Positions 2,701 through 8,725 of a stretch of DNA of 64,000 nt are shown here, in pieces. The notes beneath the pieces were generated by a model. That model worked only from the letters and a program-made list of their open reading frames with translations, did no database searches and was not told the DNA's origin. Positions within the stretch are counted from its first letter, which is position 1; each line of letters starts with the position of its first letter. Made by a program: the position numbers and the translations under genes. The stretch covers positions 434,001-498,000 of the forward strand of contig JAFLBV010000002.1 of assembly GCA_017302895.1 (NCBI GenBank), read 5' to 3'. This DNA comes from Ignavibacteria bacterium. Lineage in GTDB: Bacteria; Bacteroidota; Ignavibacteria; Ignavibacteriales; Ignavibacteriaceae.

Positions 2701-4296
2701 CTATTTGTTGAGTCGGAAATTCGAGATAAAAAGTCTGACAGACTCAATTTCCGAACCAAGATAAGTATCCCCTTCTGGAAGTGGCAATATTTTGTTTAAC
2801 TCATCGAAAAGAGAAGCAGTCCCTTCACCCAGCCTGCATAAATCTCCTTCAAGATAACCCGGTTTGTTGTTAGTCATTTGCAAGCCTCTCAAGGCACACA
2901 AAATCTCAACTGCAAGCACTGTTTTAAGGTTTTCCAAAACCTTCAGCAAATGAACAACACCAACACTACCCATGGAAACAAAATCTTCCTGGCCTGCTGA
3001 AGTCGAAATGGACATTACGGAAGCAGGATTCGAAAGCACTCTGTTCTCCCCTGCCCTGGAAGCCCCCGAATATTGCGCGAGCATTAGACCCGAATCACCT
3101 TTCTCAGGCGAAATTGCAAGATTGGAAGGAAGTCCAAAACTCAGGTTTTTGCTGAGCATTGAAAATGATCTTTTGTCGGATATCAATGAGAGTGTCGTAA
3201 AAGAAAGTTTAAGATAATCTATTACATTTGCCAGTGGTTGACCATGGAAGTTTGAACCGGAGTGAAAAATCAGAGAATCGTCTTCAAGTTCAAACAAAGG
3301 ATTGTCCGTTACCGAATTTATCTCTATTGTGAGGACTTCATCAAACTTTTGCAGGGCCTCAAAAGCCGCTCCGTGTACAGGTGGAACAGACCTAAAACAA
3401 TATCTGTCCTGCACTCTCTCAGTGGCTGAAGCAATATCCTGCCCTTTGAACTGAATTTTTTGGGCTTCCACTGTTGTTCGTTTTGATCCGTTCAAGAGCC
3501 TCCGCATTTCCCCGGAAACTTCTACAAGACCTTTGTGCTGTCTTTTAGAAGCAAGGAAACTGCTGAAGGCATCCTTTTCACCTCTTATTGCTTCGAGTGA
3601 AAGAGCTGCTGCCAAATTACTTGTTTTTAACAGGTTACGAGCTTCAATTGATGCAAATACAGAGTTTGCCGACATGAAATTGGTACCGTTAGTCAAGCCC
3701 ATTGCCTCTTTGAATCCCAATCTAACAGGATTCAGACCGGCTCTTTTTAGTGCATCGGGAGCCTTCAATAGTTCTCCATTGTACCATGCCCGGGCTTCAG
3801 GAAGTCCAATCATTACTCCGGCAATCATTGCCAAAGGAACGAGATCACCGCTTGCACCAACCGACCCTTCTGTAAGCACTAACGGAACGACTCCGGCATT
3901 TAACATCGACTCAAGCATCTCGACCGTCTCAATCGACATAGCAGAAACACCATGAGCGAACGAATTAAGCCTGATTATCATCATTGCCCTGACGATTTCC
4001 GGGTTCAAAGGCTCACCGGTTCCACAACTGTGCGATTTAATATATTTAATCTGAAACTCTTCAGCATCTTCAGGTGAAATGTACGTGTCTTTCAAATTTC
4101 CCACGCCCACATTCACGCCATAAATTTTCTGAAGCGGATTTTCCGAAATCTGCTGTAAAAGCCTGTCGCGACACTTTGCGATGGCAACGCGGGCATCATC
4201 AGTTAACAAAACCTTAAACGGTTTCACGGAGGCATCATAAACTTCATCTATCGTTAATGAGTGCCCGTCCAAATAAAGGATATTATTCTTGATCAT
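2701..4296 (-). CDS. hutH: Histidine ammonia-lyase
   Basis: 531 aa member of the MIO-type aromatic amino acid lyases. The self-cyclising Ala-Ser-Gly triad is at residues 148-150 in the motif GSVGASGDLVPLA. Selectivity positions match histidine rather than tyrosine or phenylalanine lyases: Ser-His at 88-89 (SHSCGTGEP, aligned with SHAAGxGEP of HutH) and a Gln-Glu-Asp in GQEDFVSMG. The enzyme removes ammonia from L-histidine to give urocanate. No hutU, hutI or hutG is present in the window, so the degradation pathway is not clustered. It follows hisS by 25 bp and precedes the PLP deaminase by 28 bp, all on the minus strand. A GGGAGAG ribosome-binding site precedes the ATG. The substrate call rests on motif comparison only. 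Confidence 0.83.
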   Translation of the reverse strand: MIKNNILYLDGHSLTIDEVYDASVKPFKVLLTDDARVAIAKCRDRLLQQISENPLQKIYGVNVGVGNLKDTYISPEDAEEFQIKYIKSHSCGTGEPLNPEIVRAMMIIRLNSFAHGVSAMSIETVEMLESMLNAGVVPLVLTEGSVGASGDLVPLAMIAGVMIGLPEARAWYNGELLKAPDALKRAGLNPVRLGFKEAMGLTNGTNFMSANSVFASIEARNLLKTSNLAAALSLEAIRGEKDAFSSFLASKRQHKGLVEVSGEMRRLLNGSKRTTVEAQKIQFKGQDIASATERVQDRYCFRSVPPVHGAAFEALQKFDEVLTIEINSVTDNPLFELEDDSLIFHSGSNFHGQPLANVIDYLKLSFTTLSLISDKRSFSMLSKNLSFGLPSNLAISPEKGDSGLMLAQYSGASRAGENRVLSNPASVMSISTSAGQEDFVSMGSVGVVHLLKVLENLKTVLAVEILCALRGLQMTNNKPGYLEGDLCRLGEGTASLFDELNKILPLPEGDTYLGSEIESVRLFISNFRLNK

Positions 4297-4321: not shown

Positions 4322-5875
4322 TTACCTGTTTAACATTTGTTTTACTGCGGCAACAAGATCTTCACGCAACACTTCTTTTTGGACTTTTTGTTTCCACTCT
4401 TCCTTGTTCGTAATTGAGTCCGACATTTCTTTCCCAAGAGCGAGATCCCTGACTGTTACGACACCTTTAGCATACTCGTCACTGCCAAGAAGAAGACATA
4501 CAGGTGAATCCATTTTATCAGCATAACCGAGCTGTTTTTTCAATCCCCGTTGTGCACCATAGTAAACTTCTGTGCTGATTCCTGCATTTCTGAGCTCAGT
4601 TGCTATTTTCTGATATTCACCCATGAGTTCATCATCAAAGACAGTGACCAGAACAGACGATTTCGATTTAACATCCGAATTACCCGATAACACCAGCAAT
4701 TCACAGAGCCTGTCAACTCCTATGGATGCACCTGCAGCCGGCACTTTGATACCGAGCAGTCTTTCAACCAAACCATCGTATCTGCCACCACCGCATATGG
4801 AACCCACTTTTCTTGTATTTCCTTTTGAGTCTTCAAATGTAAGCAGCGACTCTACTTCGTAAACGGGTCCTGTGTAATATCCCAATCCGCGAACAATTGA
4901 TGGAGAAAATAAAACTCTGTTCTCGTCAAAACCGGCGGATGAAAGTAGCATGTCGATCTTTTTTAATTCTGCCAAACCTTCTGCAAATTTTTCATTTGAT
5001 CCACCCAGTCCCTCTAGCTCTGTAAGAATGTCTTCTCTTTTACTGTCTTCCGTAAATCTTTCGAAATAACCTGCTATTCCTTTTACAATTGTTTTATCAA
5101 TGCCAAGGCCCGGTATGAAAGCACCTGAGGAATCTTTTCTTCCCTCTCCGAGTTCAGCTACAATTCCCTGCACACCGACTTTATCTATTTTATCGATAAT
5201 TCTTAATACATTAGCCTCGTTTGCTTCGCCTTCGATACCGAGAGACTCGAGGAATCCGGATAATATCTTTCTGTTGTTCACCTTAACCAGATAAGAATTT
5301 CTCGCCAGCCCTATTGCTTCCAAAGCATCTGAAAGGATCATGCACGATTCAGCATCCGTTGCTACATCAGCGGTACCAACAGTATCAAAATCGAGTTGCC
5401 AGAATTCCCTGAATCTGCCCGGATCAAGCTTGGCTTCAAATCTGTAAACGGGACCGTATTGATATCTCTTGAACAAAGGGGCGTTTTTGGTCGTCAACTG
5501 ACTTTTTATCGATTGAAGGAACAATTCCTCAGCATACATTCTCGCCAAAGGGGCAGTAAGATCATACCGCATTGCGATATGGTGATTATCCATTACCACA
5601 AAATCGGACTCATCCCGTAACTCGCTCCCGTCATCTTTATAAACAGGCTCAGTCTCAGGGTTTCTGAATGAATAGACACCTTCAGCCACTGTTTCCTTGT
5701 CGGGAAGATATTTACCAAGGTTCTCAGCATATTCAAGTATCGGAGTGTCCCAATGACGAAATCCGTAAAGTTCGTAAACCTTTCCGGCTTTTTCGACCAC
5801 ATTCTTTCGTAATTCATTTAATTTCGGCTCAATATCTCTGAAACCTTTAATTTTTCGTGGAATCATTCCATTCAT
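4322..5875 (-). CDS. hisS: Histidyl-tRNA synthetase, long non-canonical form
   Basis: 517 aa class II synthetase that charges tRNA-His with histidine. The usual bacterial form is about 420-450 aa, so this is the long type seen in alphaproteobacteria and eukaryotes. Visible parts are the N-terminal PRKIKGFRD, motif 1, motif 2 around residues 141-167, the histidine signature RGLGYYTG, and the anticodon-binding domain at the C-terminus. The motif-2 loop reads RFEAKLDPGRFREF. The canonical bacterial loop is RHERPQKGRYRQF, so the arginine after Glu is replaced by Ala and the loop has one extra residue. That loop contacts the tRNA acceptor end. The cognate tRNA-His at 8652-8725 lacks the G-1:C73 pair, which fits a changed recognition mode. 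It is first in the hisS-hutH-deaminase operon. Confidence 0.95.
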   Translation of the reverse strand: MNGMIPRKIKGFRDIEPKLNELRKNVVEKAGKVYELYGFRHWDTPILEYAENLGKYLPDKETVAEGVYSFRNPETEPVYKDDGSELRDESDFVVMDNHHIAMRYDLTAPLARMYAEELFLQSIKSQLTTKNAPLFKRYQYGPVYRFEAKLDPGRFREFWQLDFDTVGTADVATDAESCMILSDALEAIGLARNSYLVKVNNRKILSGFLESLGIEGEANEANVLRIIDKIDKVGVQGIVAELGEGRKDSSGAFIPGLGIDKTIVKGIAGYFERFTEDSKREDILTELEGLGGSNEKFAEGLAELKKIDMLLSSAGFDENRVLFSPSIVRGLGYYTGPVYEVESLLTFEDSKGNTRKVGSICGGGRYDGLVERLLGIKVPAAGASIGVDRLCELLVLSGNSDVKSKSSVLVTVFDDELMGEYQKIATELRNAGISTEVYYGAQRGLKKQLGYADKMDSPVCLLLGSDEYAKGVVTVRDLALGKEMSDSITNKEEWKQKVQKEVLREDLVAAVKQMLNR

Positions 5876-5984: not shown

Positions 5985-6632
5985 TTGGAACTCTTCAGCA
6001 AACTGCGCGAACCGGTAAATGGATTTACTCATTTCCTGGGTGTAGTTCTTGCGCCAGTAGCACTATTTGTGCTTTTGAATCGCGAGCATCCTGCCGTAAC
6101 AGGGACGCACATTGTTGCATTTTCAATTTTCTGTGCATCGCAGTTTTTTCTTTTTCTGGCGAGTACACTCTATCACTGGATTCCGGCCTCGGATCGAAAA
6201 CTCGTGATACTCAGGAAAATAGACCACATCATGATCTTTGTTTCAATTGCAGGTTCTTACACTCCCGTTTGTTTGATTACCCTCGGAGGTACTCTCGGGT
6301 ATGTAACACTGGGAGTGGTTTGGACGATAGCCCTTGCGGGTTTTTTCATCAAGGTATTTTGGTTGCATGCGCCGCGAAAACTGTATACAGGAATCTATCT
6401 TGCAATGGGGTGGCTCGTTCTTTTAGTCATCTATCCGCTTTACAATGCAATGCCGGAAGGTGGAATGTTTTGGCTGATTCTTGAAGCAGTATTTTATACT
6501 GTTGGTGCTCTTATCTATGCATTTAAGAGACCTGACCCGTTTCCGGGGATAATGGGATTTCACGAAATATTTCACATCTTCATCTTGTTGGGGGCATTCT
6601 CCCACTTTTATCTTTTACTCAAATTTGTTTGA
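5985..6632 (+). CDS. Hemolysin III / PAQR-family membrane protein
   Basis: 215 aa integral membrane protein with about seven predicted membrane segments. It carries the three PAQR signatures: STLYHW near residue 62, RKIDHIMIF near residue 78, and HEIFHIF near the C-terminus. The conserved His, Asp and Ser residues are thought to bind a metal. Bacterial members (hemolysin III, YqfA/TrhA) are linked to membrane-fluidity homeostasis or hydrolase-like activity rather than to true toxin function. The start is a TTG at 5985, which gives the family N-terminus MELFSKLREPVNGFTHFLG. It is a single gene, divergent from hisS. The family is clear; the biochemical role is unsettled for the whole family. 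Confidence 0.88.
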   Translation: MELFSKLREPVNGFTHFLGVVLAPVALFVLLNREHPAVTGTHIVAFSIFCASQFFLFLASTLYHWIPASDRKLVILRKIDHIMIFVSIAGSYTPVCLITLGGTLGYVTLGVVWTIALAGFFIKVFWLHAPRKLYTGIYLAMGWLVLLVIYPLYNAMPEGGMFWLILEAVFYTVGALIYAFKRPDPFPGIMGFHEIFHIFILLGAFSHFYLLLKFV

Positions 6633-6829: not shown

Positions 6830-8602
6830 ATGCGCAAAATGTACTCTCTCTTCTTCTTCATTTGTCTTTCACTGATCGCATCATCCCAGGATTTGCGTAT
6901 CGAGAAACCGGTCTTCTCCGCGGGCAATCAGGGTGACTGGGTTCCTGACAATGTAGTGCTCAACTATAAACCGATCGGAATGATGTCAGGAATTCAAACA
7001 TCCAACGGTGATATATATATTGCTATCAATGATACTCTTTCAACCACAAACTTGGGTCTTGTCGTCAGAAAATCGACTGATGCCGGGGTTACATGGACTA
7101 CTCTCAGCGGAGTAAACAGCAGAACAAAATTTGAAAAACTCAAACTTATTAAAAGTTCTTTGGATTCTGTTTACTGCTTCTTCCAGGAAGGTTTCAGCGT
7201 TTACAGTTGGAATATTAACGGTTCAATTTTAAATCCCGTTATGGTTGCTGGTGGTTACAGATCTTTTGATGTGGAGATAACATCAACCAATTCAATGTAT
7301 GTCGTTTTGGATTCACTCCCATCAAACAACCTGGTAAGATATGCCTCGCTCGATTATGGTTACAGTTGGATCAACAGAGGAAGTATATCCTCAGCTGCGG
7401 CATTACCATTCCTCTCCAAATCTGTAAGTGGTGATACTCTGTTTCTTAATTATATGGGACCCATCCTCGCCGATACTGCAACATCGGTCATAAGAGTTGT
7501 AAGGTACCGTGAAACAGCCCCGGGCGTATTGGCTTCAGCAACTTTTCAGGATATAGCAACCAGTACCCTTCCGAAATATGAATATAAAACAGTAGCTGGA
7601 AATGGCGTTGCCTGGTTTGTTTATACAAAGGTTGATGGAAGTTCACAACTTTGGGCGCGACAGAGCACAGACGGAGGCTTCACCTACGGCACAGAATTCA
7701 GGGTTAATCCTGATGAAACTGTTAATCAGTATGGATTTGATCTAAAAGCGAAATTTCCTGCCGGAAACGGATTCAGTTTTGTTTATCATGCTGACAGTGC
7801 TCAGGTTGGACCTTCGACTTCAGTAACTGATAAAATACAATTCGGATCTGCGCTTCAGACAGGTTCTTCGTTCCAGCCTTTTGAACAGATCAATCAAGTG
7901 CCTGCTTTCTTCTCAGCAAACAACTGCAAACCAATCATCGTCGAACTTCCGTTCTACAACAGCTCAGGTGTAGCATTTGAAGCTGAGACCGGTACAGGAA
8001 ATAAAGTCTACTGGGATGCTTTCCATCTCGTTCCTGTTGAATTGACTTCGTTCTCTGCAGATGTTTATGCAAATAAAGTCGTCCTTAACTGGTCAACAGC
8101 CACTGAAACCAACAACCGCGGATTTTCAGTTGAGAAAAAGACTATCGGAAACTGGGAAAAAATCGGATTCGTAAACGGTAACGGAACTTCAACCAGAGCT
8201 CACAATTATTCATTTATTGATAATGACAACGCCACCGGAAAGGTTTACTACAGACTGAATCAGATCGATCTGGACGGAACAAGTTCCTTCTCAAAAGTTG
8301 TTGAAGTTGATCTTTCTACACCTAATGAGTACAACTTAAGCCAGAATTATCCGAATCCTTTCAACCCTTCAACCTCAATAAAATTCGCATTGAAGGTGGA
8401 TTCAAAAGTATCTTTGAAGATATTCAACCCTCTCGGACAGGAAGTAATGACTATCCTCTCCGACAACCATGCCGCAGGAAGCTACAATATTTCCGTTAAT
8501 GCAGCAGGTTTGAACAGCGGTGTATATTTCTACACACTGGAAGCAAACGGAGTGGATGGGAGTAAATTCACTTCCACGAAGAAAATGATACTGATGAAAT
8601 AA
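6830..8602 (+). CDS. Secreted protein with type IX secretion C-terminal sorting domain
   Basis: 590 aa. A signal peptide covers roughly residues 1-20 (MRKMYSLFFFICLSLIASSQ). The middle (about 30-400) has sialidase/BNR-like features such as repeated STDAG or STDGG turns (residues about 86 and 283). Next comes a module beginning VELTSFSADVYANKVVLNW that is common in Ignavibacteria-type secreted proteins. The last ~85 residues form a T9SS type A sorting domain: YPNPFNPSTSIKF, then KIFNPLGQEV and a final SGVYFYTLEAN strand. It should be exported by Sec, carried over the outer membrane by the T9SS, and cleaved and anchored by PorU (gene at 50404). An AAGAGG ribosome-binding site precedes the ATG. 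Its catalytic function, if any, cannot be told. Confidence 0.8.
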   Translation: MRKMYSLFFFICLSLIASSQDLRIEKPVFSAGNQGDWVPDNVVLNYKPIGMMSGIQTSNGDIYIAINDTLSTTNLGLVVRKSTDAGVTWTTLSGVNSRTKFEKLKLIKSSLDSVYCFFQEGFSVYSWNINGSILNPVMVAGGYRSFDVEITSTNSMYVVLDSLPSNNLVRYASLDYGYSWINRGSISSAAALPFLSKSVSGDTLFLNYMGPILADTATSVIRVVRYRETAPGVLASATFQDIATSTLPKYEYKTVAGNGVAWFVYTKVDGSSQLWARQSTDGGFTYGTEFRVNPDETVNQYGFDLKAKFPAGNGFSFVYHADSAQVGPSTSVTDKIQFGSALQTGSSFQPFEQINQVPAFFSANNCKPIIVELPFYNSSGVAFEAETGTGNKVYWDAFHLVPVELTSFSADVYANKVVLNWSTATETNNRGFSVEKKTIGNWEKIGFVNGNGTSTRAHNYSFIDNDNATGKVYYRLNQIDLDGTSSFSKVVEVDLSTPNEYNLSQNYPNPFNPSTSIKFALKVDSKVSLKIFNPLGQEVMTILSDNHAAGSYNISVNAAGLNSGVYFYTLEANGVDGSKFTSTKKMILMK

Positions 8603-8651: not shown

Positions 8652-8725
8652 TACCGTTGATAGGATTCGAACCTATGGCCTTCTGAGCCACAGTCAGACG
8701 CTCTAACCAACTGAGCTACAACGGC
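8652..8725 (-). tRNA. tRNA-His (GTG) lacking the G-1:C73 identity pair
   Basis: A full cloverleaf of 74 nt on the minus strand. Acceptor GCCGTTG pairs with CAACGGT, with a G1.U72 wobble. The D-arm is GCTC/GAGC, the anticodon stem TCTGA/TCAGA, and the loop CTGTGGC gives anticodon GTG at positions 34-36. The T-arm is ATAGG/CCTAT with loop TTCGAAT. The base at -1 is T and the discriminator base 73 is A, so the hallmark G-1:C73 pair of tRNA-His is not encoded. CCA is not encoded either (the 3' end runs into CAAAAAAA). A promoter-like pair lies upstream and a terminator hairpin follows directly. Confidence 0.93.

Follow-up and report, generated by a model that had tools for sequence, protein, structure and literature searches.

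The window analyzed here is a 64,000-nucleotide stretch of an Ignavibacteriaceae draft genome (3.98 Mb, six contigs, scored 100% complete), and it contains a tRNA-His(GUG) gene on the minus strand at 8652–8725. The G-1:C73 pair is a near-universal identity element of tRNA-His. A first-pass annotation of the sequence had described this gene as having a GTG anticodon and a G1·U72 wobble while lacking both G-1 and C73; ARAGORN, Rfam (RF00005, 76.2 bits, threshold 29) and direct reading of the minus strand bear this out. Position -1 is T in place of G (8726, minus strand), followed by G1 (8725), and the gene ends with T72 (8653) and A73 (8652). Hence, as in the tRNA-His of the RRCH alphaproteobacteria (Caulobacter, Rhizobiales, Rhodobacterales), there is no genomically encoded G-1. 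All seven acceptor-stem pairs are formed, including G1·U72, and CCA is absent from the gene, the 3' trailer being CAAAAAA. An identical tRNA-His is found in a second genome of the genus (G003) and the same bases at -1, 1, 72 and 73 occur in G001 and G002, ruling out sequencing error. The T at -1 is uninformative alone, since 31 of the 44 tRNA genes of the source genome have T there; we accordingly rejected it as a conserved feature of tRNA-His.

The same window encodes a histidyl-tRNA synthetase (HisRS) of 517 amino acids (hisS, 4322–5875, minus strand), which the annotation had rightly linked to the unusual tRNA. Its product matches TIGR00442 at 321 bits (cut-off 286.75) and contains both the catalytic and the anticodon domain of HisRS (PF13393, PF03129). 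In ordinary HisRS, the Gln of the motif-2 loop RPQ(A/K)GR interacts with G-1:C73, and Gly occupies its place in RRCH alphaproteobacteria (PMC3937112). Alignments show that residues 145–155 of the window protein read RFEAKLDPGRF (codons at 5411–5443, minus strand) where ordinary HisRS has RPQAGRF; the Gln is thus lost, but the loop is KLDPGRF rather than the KPGPGRF of the alphaproteobacteria. Residues 245–258 (5102–5143, minus strand) form an insert, GRxDxSGxxIxGxG, that was present together with a C-terminal extension, EEW..Q.EV, in all aligned HisRS forms from genomes lacking G-1 and in no ordinary HisRS.

In most relatives hisS is encoded next to tRNA-His, an arrangement referred to here as the cassette. 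In the window, the two genes are split by two plus-strand genes, one for an HlyIII-family membrane protein (5985–6632; PF03006) and one for a type IX secretion-sorted protein (6830–8602; PF18962). G003 is arranged as in the window, with the HlyIII gene in the same place; this gene is absent in G001, where other genes occupy a gap of 5.5 kb, while G009 retains an intact 80-bp arrangement. The next gene after hisS encodes an aromatic amino acid lyase resembling histidine ammonia-lyase (2701–4296, minus strand; PF00221, 494 bits). A lyase gene likewise follows hisS in eight other loci (L117, L118, L119, L120, L122, L123, L134 and L144; 32–76% identity), which belong to different lineages and carry differing lyase subtypes. 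Apart from this gene, conserved-neighbor analysis around the cassette recovered only a block in seven Saprospirales-type loci.

We surveyed the source genome for genes that could supply a conventional histidine identity. It contains 44 tRNA genes, of which one is tRNA-His, and hisS is likewise single copy. The annotation had named a second tRNA-His with G-1:C73 as the finding that would overturn its reading, and none was present among the 44 tRNA genes of this genome. The draft state of the assembly leaves a negligible chance that a normal tRNA-His was missed and that the gene in the window is decayed or does not serve histidine: the genome is scored as complete, no other tRNA has a GUG anticodon, and the 76-bit cloverleaf is kept in 4/4 genomes of the genus. 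The annotation had also proposed a search for Thg1-like proteins, and the source genome, at its scored completeness, has no match to PF04446, the Thg1 family whose presence would accompany a eukaryote-type tRNA-His. Eukaryotes do add G-1 opposite A73 (PMC6471195), and an unrecognized Thg1-like or other enzyme could in principle do so here. Given the lack of Thg1, however, such post-transcriptional addition is unlikely, and the probability we attach to it is very low; it also fits poorly with a HisRS that lacks the motif-2 Gln linked to G-1:C73 (PMC3937112) and with relatives whose base 73 varies (A, G or U).

Comparison with relatives, another of the checks proposed, placed the window in its phylogenetic setting; the FCB-group origin that had been suspected is correct. 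The 517-aa HisRS type also occurs in five genomes of the family (G001, G003, G005, G009 and G014; 58–96% identity), and the remaining family and order members with a match encode an ordinary HisRS of ~425 amino acids that is about 30% identical to it. G-1, G1-C72, U2-A71 and C73 were present in 30/30 typed family and order relatives outside this group. In contrast, the tRNA-His of G000, G001, G002, G003, G009 and G014 lacks G-1 and has G1·U72, C2-G71 and A73. The tRNA type and the HisRS type covaried completely wherever both genes were typed, which leaves aside G005 (no typed tRNA-His) and G002 (HisRS not found). With the acceptor stem left out, identity of the window tRNA to ordinary tRNA-His is 69% within its family and 79% within its order, and its identity to cassette tRNAs from other lineages is 73%; the tRNA body by itself therefore does not prove the putative co-transfer.

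The annotation had left a choice between an independent loss and a transferred identity system, and these data support the second and not the first. In the first case, the native tRNA-His would have lost G-1 and C73 in place and the native HisRS would have adapted, which would suit a tRNA body that is that of a normal bacterial tRNA and that matches ordinary relatives at U20a and over a large part of the D arm. We nevertheless consider this scenario highly improbable: a HisRS only ~30% identical to that of its own family, and grouped with the alphaproteobacterial type, is not a modified native enzyme. The transferred system agrees with a replacement HisRS that most members of the family and order lack, that belongs to the same clade as the alphaproteobacterial type and that most relatives encode beside the tRNA.

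We queried 84,980 species genomes with an alignment of six proteins and obtained 32 loci, which belong to Ignavibacteria, Bacteroidales, Saprospirales, Kapabacteria and an Acidobacteria MAG; sampling outside Bacteroidota was thin. At 24 loci (Saprospirales, Bacteroidales, Ignavibacteria, Kapabacteria and Acidobacteria MAGs), tRNA-His(GUG) precedes hisS by 23–158 bp in the same orientation, and G at -1 was absent from every hisS-linked tRNA-His. The sole exception in a carrier is a tRNA-His located elsewhere in a MAG with a cassette-type HisRS (L155 and L129 in G050), in which G-1 stands opposite A73 with C72. The 1:72 pair is G·U in Ignavibacteria, Bacteroidales and Kapabacteria, C-G in most Saprospirales and U-A in two carriers; base 73 is mostly A, but three carriers have G and one has U. 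C2:G71 is constant in cassette tRNA-His. We rejected this pair as a feature exclusive to G-1-less tRNAs, as an ordinary Kapabacteria tRNA-His (L176) also carries it. In the Acidobacteria MAG (L119, L149), the usual T-1/A73 is reversed to A-1/T73.

These variants bear on how the 5' end of the tRNA may be formed. RNase P could cut one base upstream, such that U-1 is kept, pairs with A73 and substitutes for G-1:C73; T-1 occurs with A73 in 30/41 genomes, and the swapped A-1/T73 of one relative would preserve such a pair. Against this, C-1/A73, A-1/A73 or G-1/A73 is found in 7/41 genomes and T-1 is the default across the source genome, and we judge this possibility improbable. Because position -1 does not pair with base 73 in those seven genomes, and because of that default, we infer that RNase P would instead cleave at +1 to leave a normal 7-bp acceptor stem.

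Ordinary HisRS was not found in 34 genomes with the new HisRS type or its tRNA, with the exception of one MAG that has both. This Kapabacteria MAG (G065; L146, L173, L176) encodes an ordinary HisRS and a G-1:C73 tRNA-His alongside the new pair, on contigs of similar GC content, and represents either a transitional state or contamination. Another genome, G042 (L120, L145), contains the cassette in two copies, with one hisS cut to 257 amino acids and two tRNA-His genes that differ only at base 73 (G and A). No vector was identified: IMG/VR yielded no relative, and the HisRS in phage records were distant ones only.

We also searched 245 genomes of the class for tRNA-His genes whose base 73 is not C. 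There were 35 matches, 20 of which were real as judged by acceptor pairing and cloverleaf and the rest chance; the real genes comprised four in family f1, six in f5, nine in f8 and one in f56. All 20 of these genomes encode a HisRS of the superclade resolved by the trees below. Families f5 and f8 (L221–L239) have a third G-1-independent form of HisRS, with the loop KPDPGRF and a tRNA-His with G1·U72 and A73; in four f8 genomes with such a HisRS, no tRNA-His was found by the search pattern. In a 396-genome sample of the phylum, C73 was present in every real tRNA-His among the matches listed.

Maximum-likelihood analysis, on trees with long branches and a single eukaryote (human HARS), grouped HisRS from genomes lacking G-1 in one clade (100/99), with the alphaproteobacterial type inside and human HARS outside. 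Ordinary Ignavibacteria HisRS grouped with that of E. coli. The superclade splits into the f5/f8 form (93/85) and a branch that unites the alphaproteobacteria with their sister, the cassette clade (100/99); the window HisRS thus falls outside the RRCH group itself, in its sister clade. Topologies that joined alphaproteobacteria with human HARS (p = 0.0002), or that placed alphaproteobacteria outside all Bacteroidota and Ignavibacteria forms (p = 0.009), were rejected. The two indel-type characters, i.e., the insert and the C-terminal extension, agree with the HisRS tree. Outside these lineages, the closest HisRS proteins are alphaproteobacterial (Paracoccus, Ruegeria, Rhodobacter, Sinorhizobium, Methylobacterium), at about 38–44% identity and E-values of about 1e-82 to 1e-113.

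The rpoB tree requires at least three to four changes of the trait within the class. A single acquisition within Ignavibacteriaceae was not rejected (p = 0.35), and repeated acquisition inside this family is therefore unsupported. One genome with an ordinary pair (G010, L258) fell inside the G-1-less subclade of the rpoB tree, a placement that could mean that the trait reverted, that the pair was replaced a second time or that the tree is poorly resolved there. Within the cassette clade, HisRS and tRNA distances were correlated (r = 0.44; 0/5000 permutations), with taxonomic relatedness as a confounder. Such a correlation is as expected if tRNA-His and hisS travel together, though shared taxonomy also contributes to it.

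Taken together, these comparisons make it very probable that the ordinary hisS and the G-1:C73 tRNA-His were lost from this genome and replaced by a foreign, self-contained pair related to the Caulobacter system. The genome would have acquired a G-1-independent HisRS together with a tRNA-His lacking G-1 and C73. The HisRS has apparently moved between bacterial lineages with its tRNA-His gene, and the direction of this transfer is inferred. A two-gene unit, tRNA-His followed by hisS on the same strand, would have spread among Bacteroidota and Ignavibacteria lineages; here its two parts are separated by two genes.

The window tRNA-His would then be charged without G-1. Its HisRS would most likely identify the tRNA by the anticodon and the acceptor end, through a motif-2 loop (KLxPGRF) without the Gln said to read G-1:C73; the enzyme of RRCH alphaproteobacteria is a sister form of this one. 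Caulobacter tRNA-His is reported to be recognized by its anticodon together with A73 and U72 (PMC9976931); both bases are present in the window tRNA-His, but they are not universal across the wider cassette clade. The absence of G-1, the Gln-less loop and the variability of the 1:72 pair and base 73 suggest that the anticodon is likely the main recognition signal for HisRS of the window clade. A broader reading, which we regard as possible but somewhat doubtful, is that the two genes form a mobile module able to specify histidine identity by itself. Its HisRS would be independent of positions -1, 72 and 73, since all three vary among carriers, and would instead read the anticodon, with C2:G71 as a possible further signal; the alphaproteobacterial system would descend from an early version of this module in bacteria and not from a eukaryotic HisRS.

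Reviews from 2019 and 2023 name only alphaproteobacteria among bacteria without G-1 (PMC6471195, PMC9976931), and we found no report of a G-1-less tRNA-His in Bacteroidetes or Ignavibacteria within an open-access library. Our findings extend this identity to several Bacteroidota and Ignavibacteria lineages. As the other deep branch of the sampled superclade is ignavibacterial, the proposal that alphaproteobacteria have a HisRS of eukaryotic origin should be tested anew. Adjacent tRNA and synthetase genes that travel as one would offer a natural route to altering an almost universal identity rule with no mischarging step in between, and the loci are a source of dozens of natural candidates for orthogonal HisRS/tRNA pairs.

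Several known systems resemble this one. Relative to the ordinary bacterial pair, the GUG anticodon and the two HisRS domains are retained, but G-1, C73 and the motif-2 Gln are missing, and C2:G71 stands where ordinary relatives have U2:A71. Trypanosoma brucei and Acanthamoeba castellanii also combine a tRNA-His lacking G-1 with an atypical HisRS (PMC6471195, PMC9976931); both are eukaryotes. The archaeal-type TyrRS and TrpRS of CPR bacteria similarly pair a foreign-type synthetase with a matching tRNA identity (PMC5370408), though for other amino acids and from other donors. The closest parallel is with the RRCH alphaproteobacteria, which share the lack of G-1, the loss of the motif-2 Gln, the GRxDxSG insert and the EEW..Q.EV extension; the tRNA-His of Shinella and Sinorhizobium meliloti lacks G-1 and has U72 and A73, as does that of the window. 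The two systems differ in their HisRS, which are about 38–44% identical, in extra inserts before motif 2 in the window clade, and in a loop that is one residue longer there (KLxPGRF) than the alphaproteobacterial KPGPGRF. Moreover, alphaproteobacterial hisS sits with hisZ/hisG, whereas the window's relatives mostly have tRNA-His just upstream of hisS and show three 1:72 pairs (G·U, C-G or U-A) and three bases at position 73. What is known, then, is the superclade and the kind of identity change; what is new is its occurrence in a different phylum, where the two genes are usually linked, the HisRS loop is distinct and the requirements on the acceptor end are less strict.
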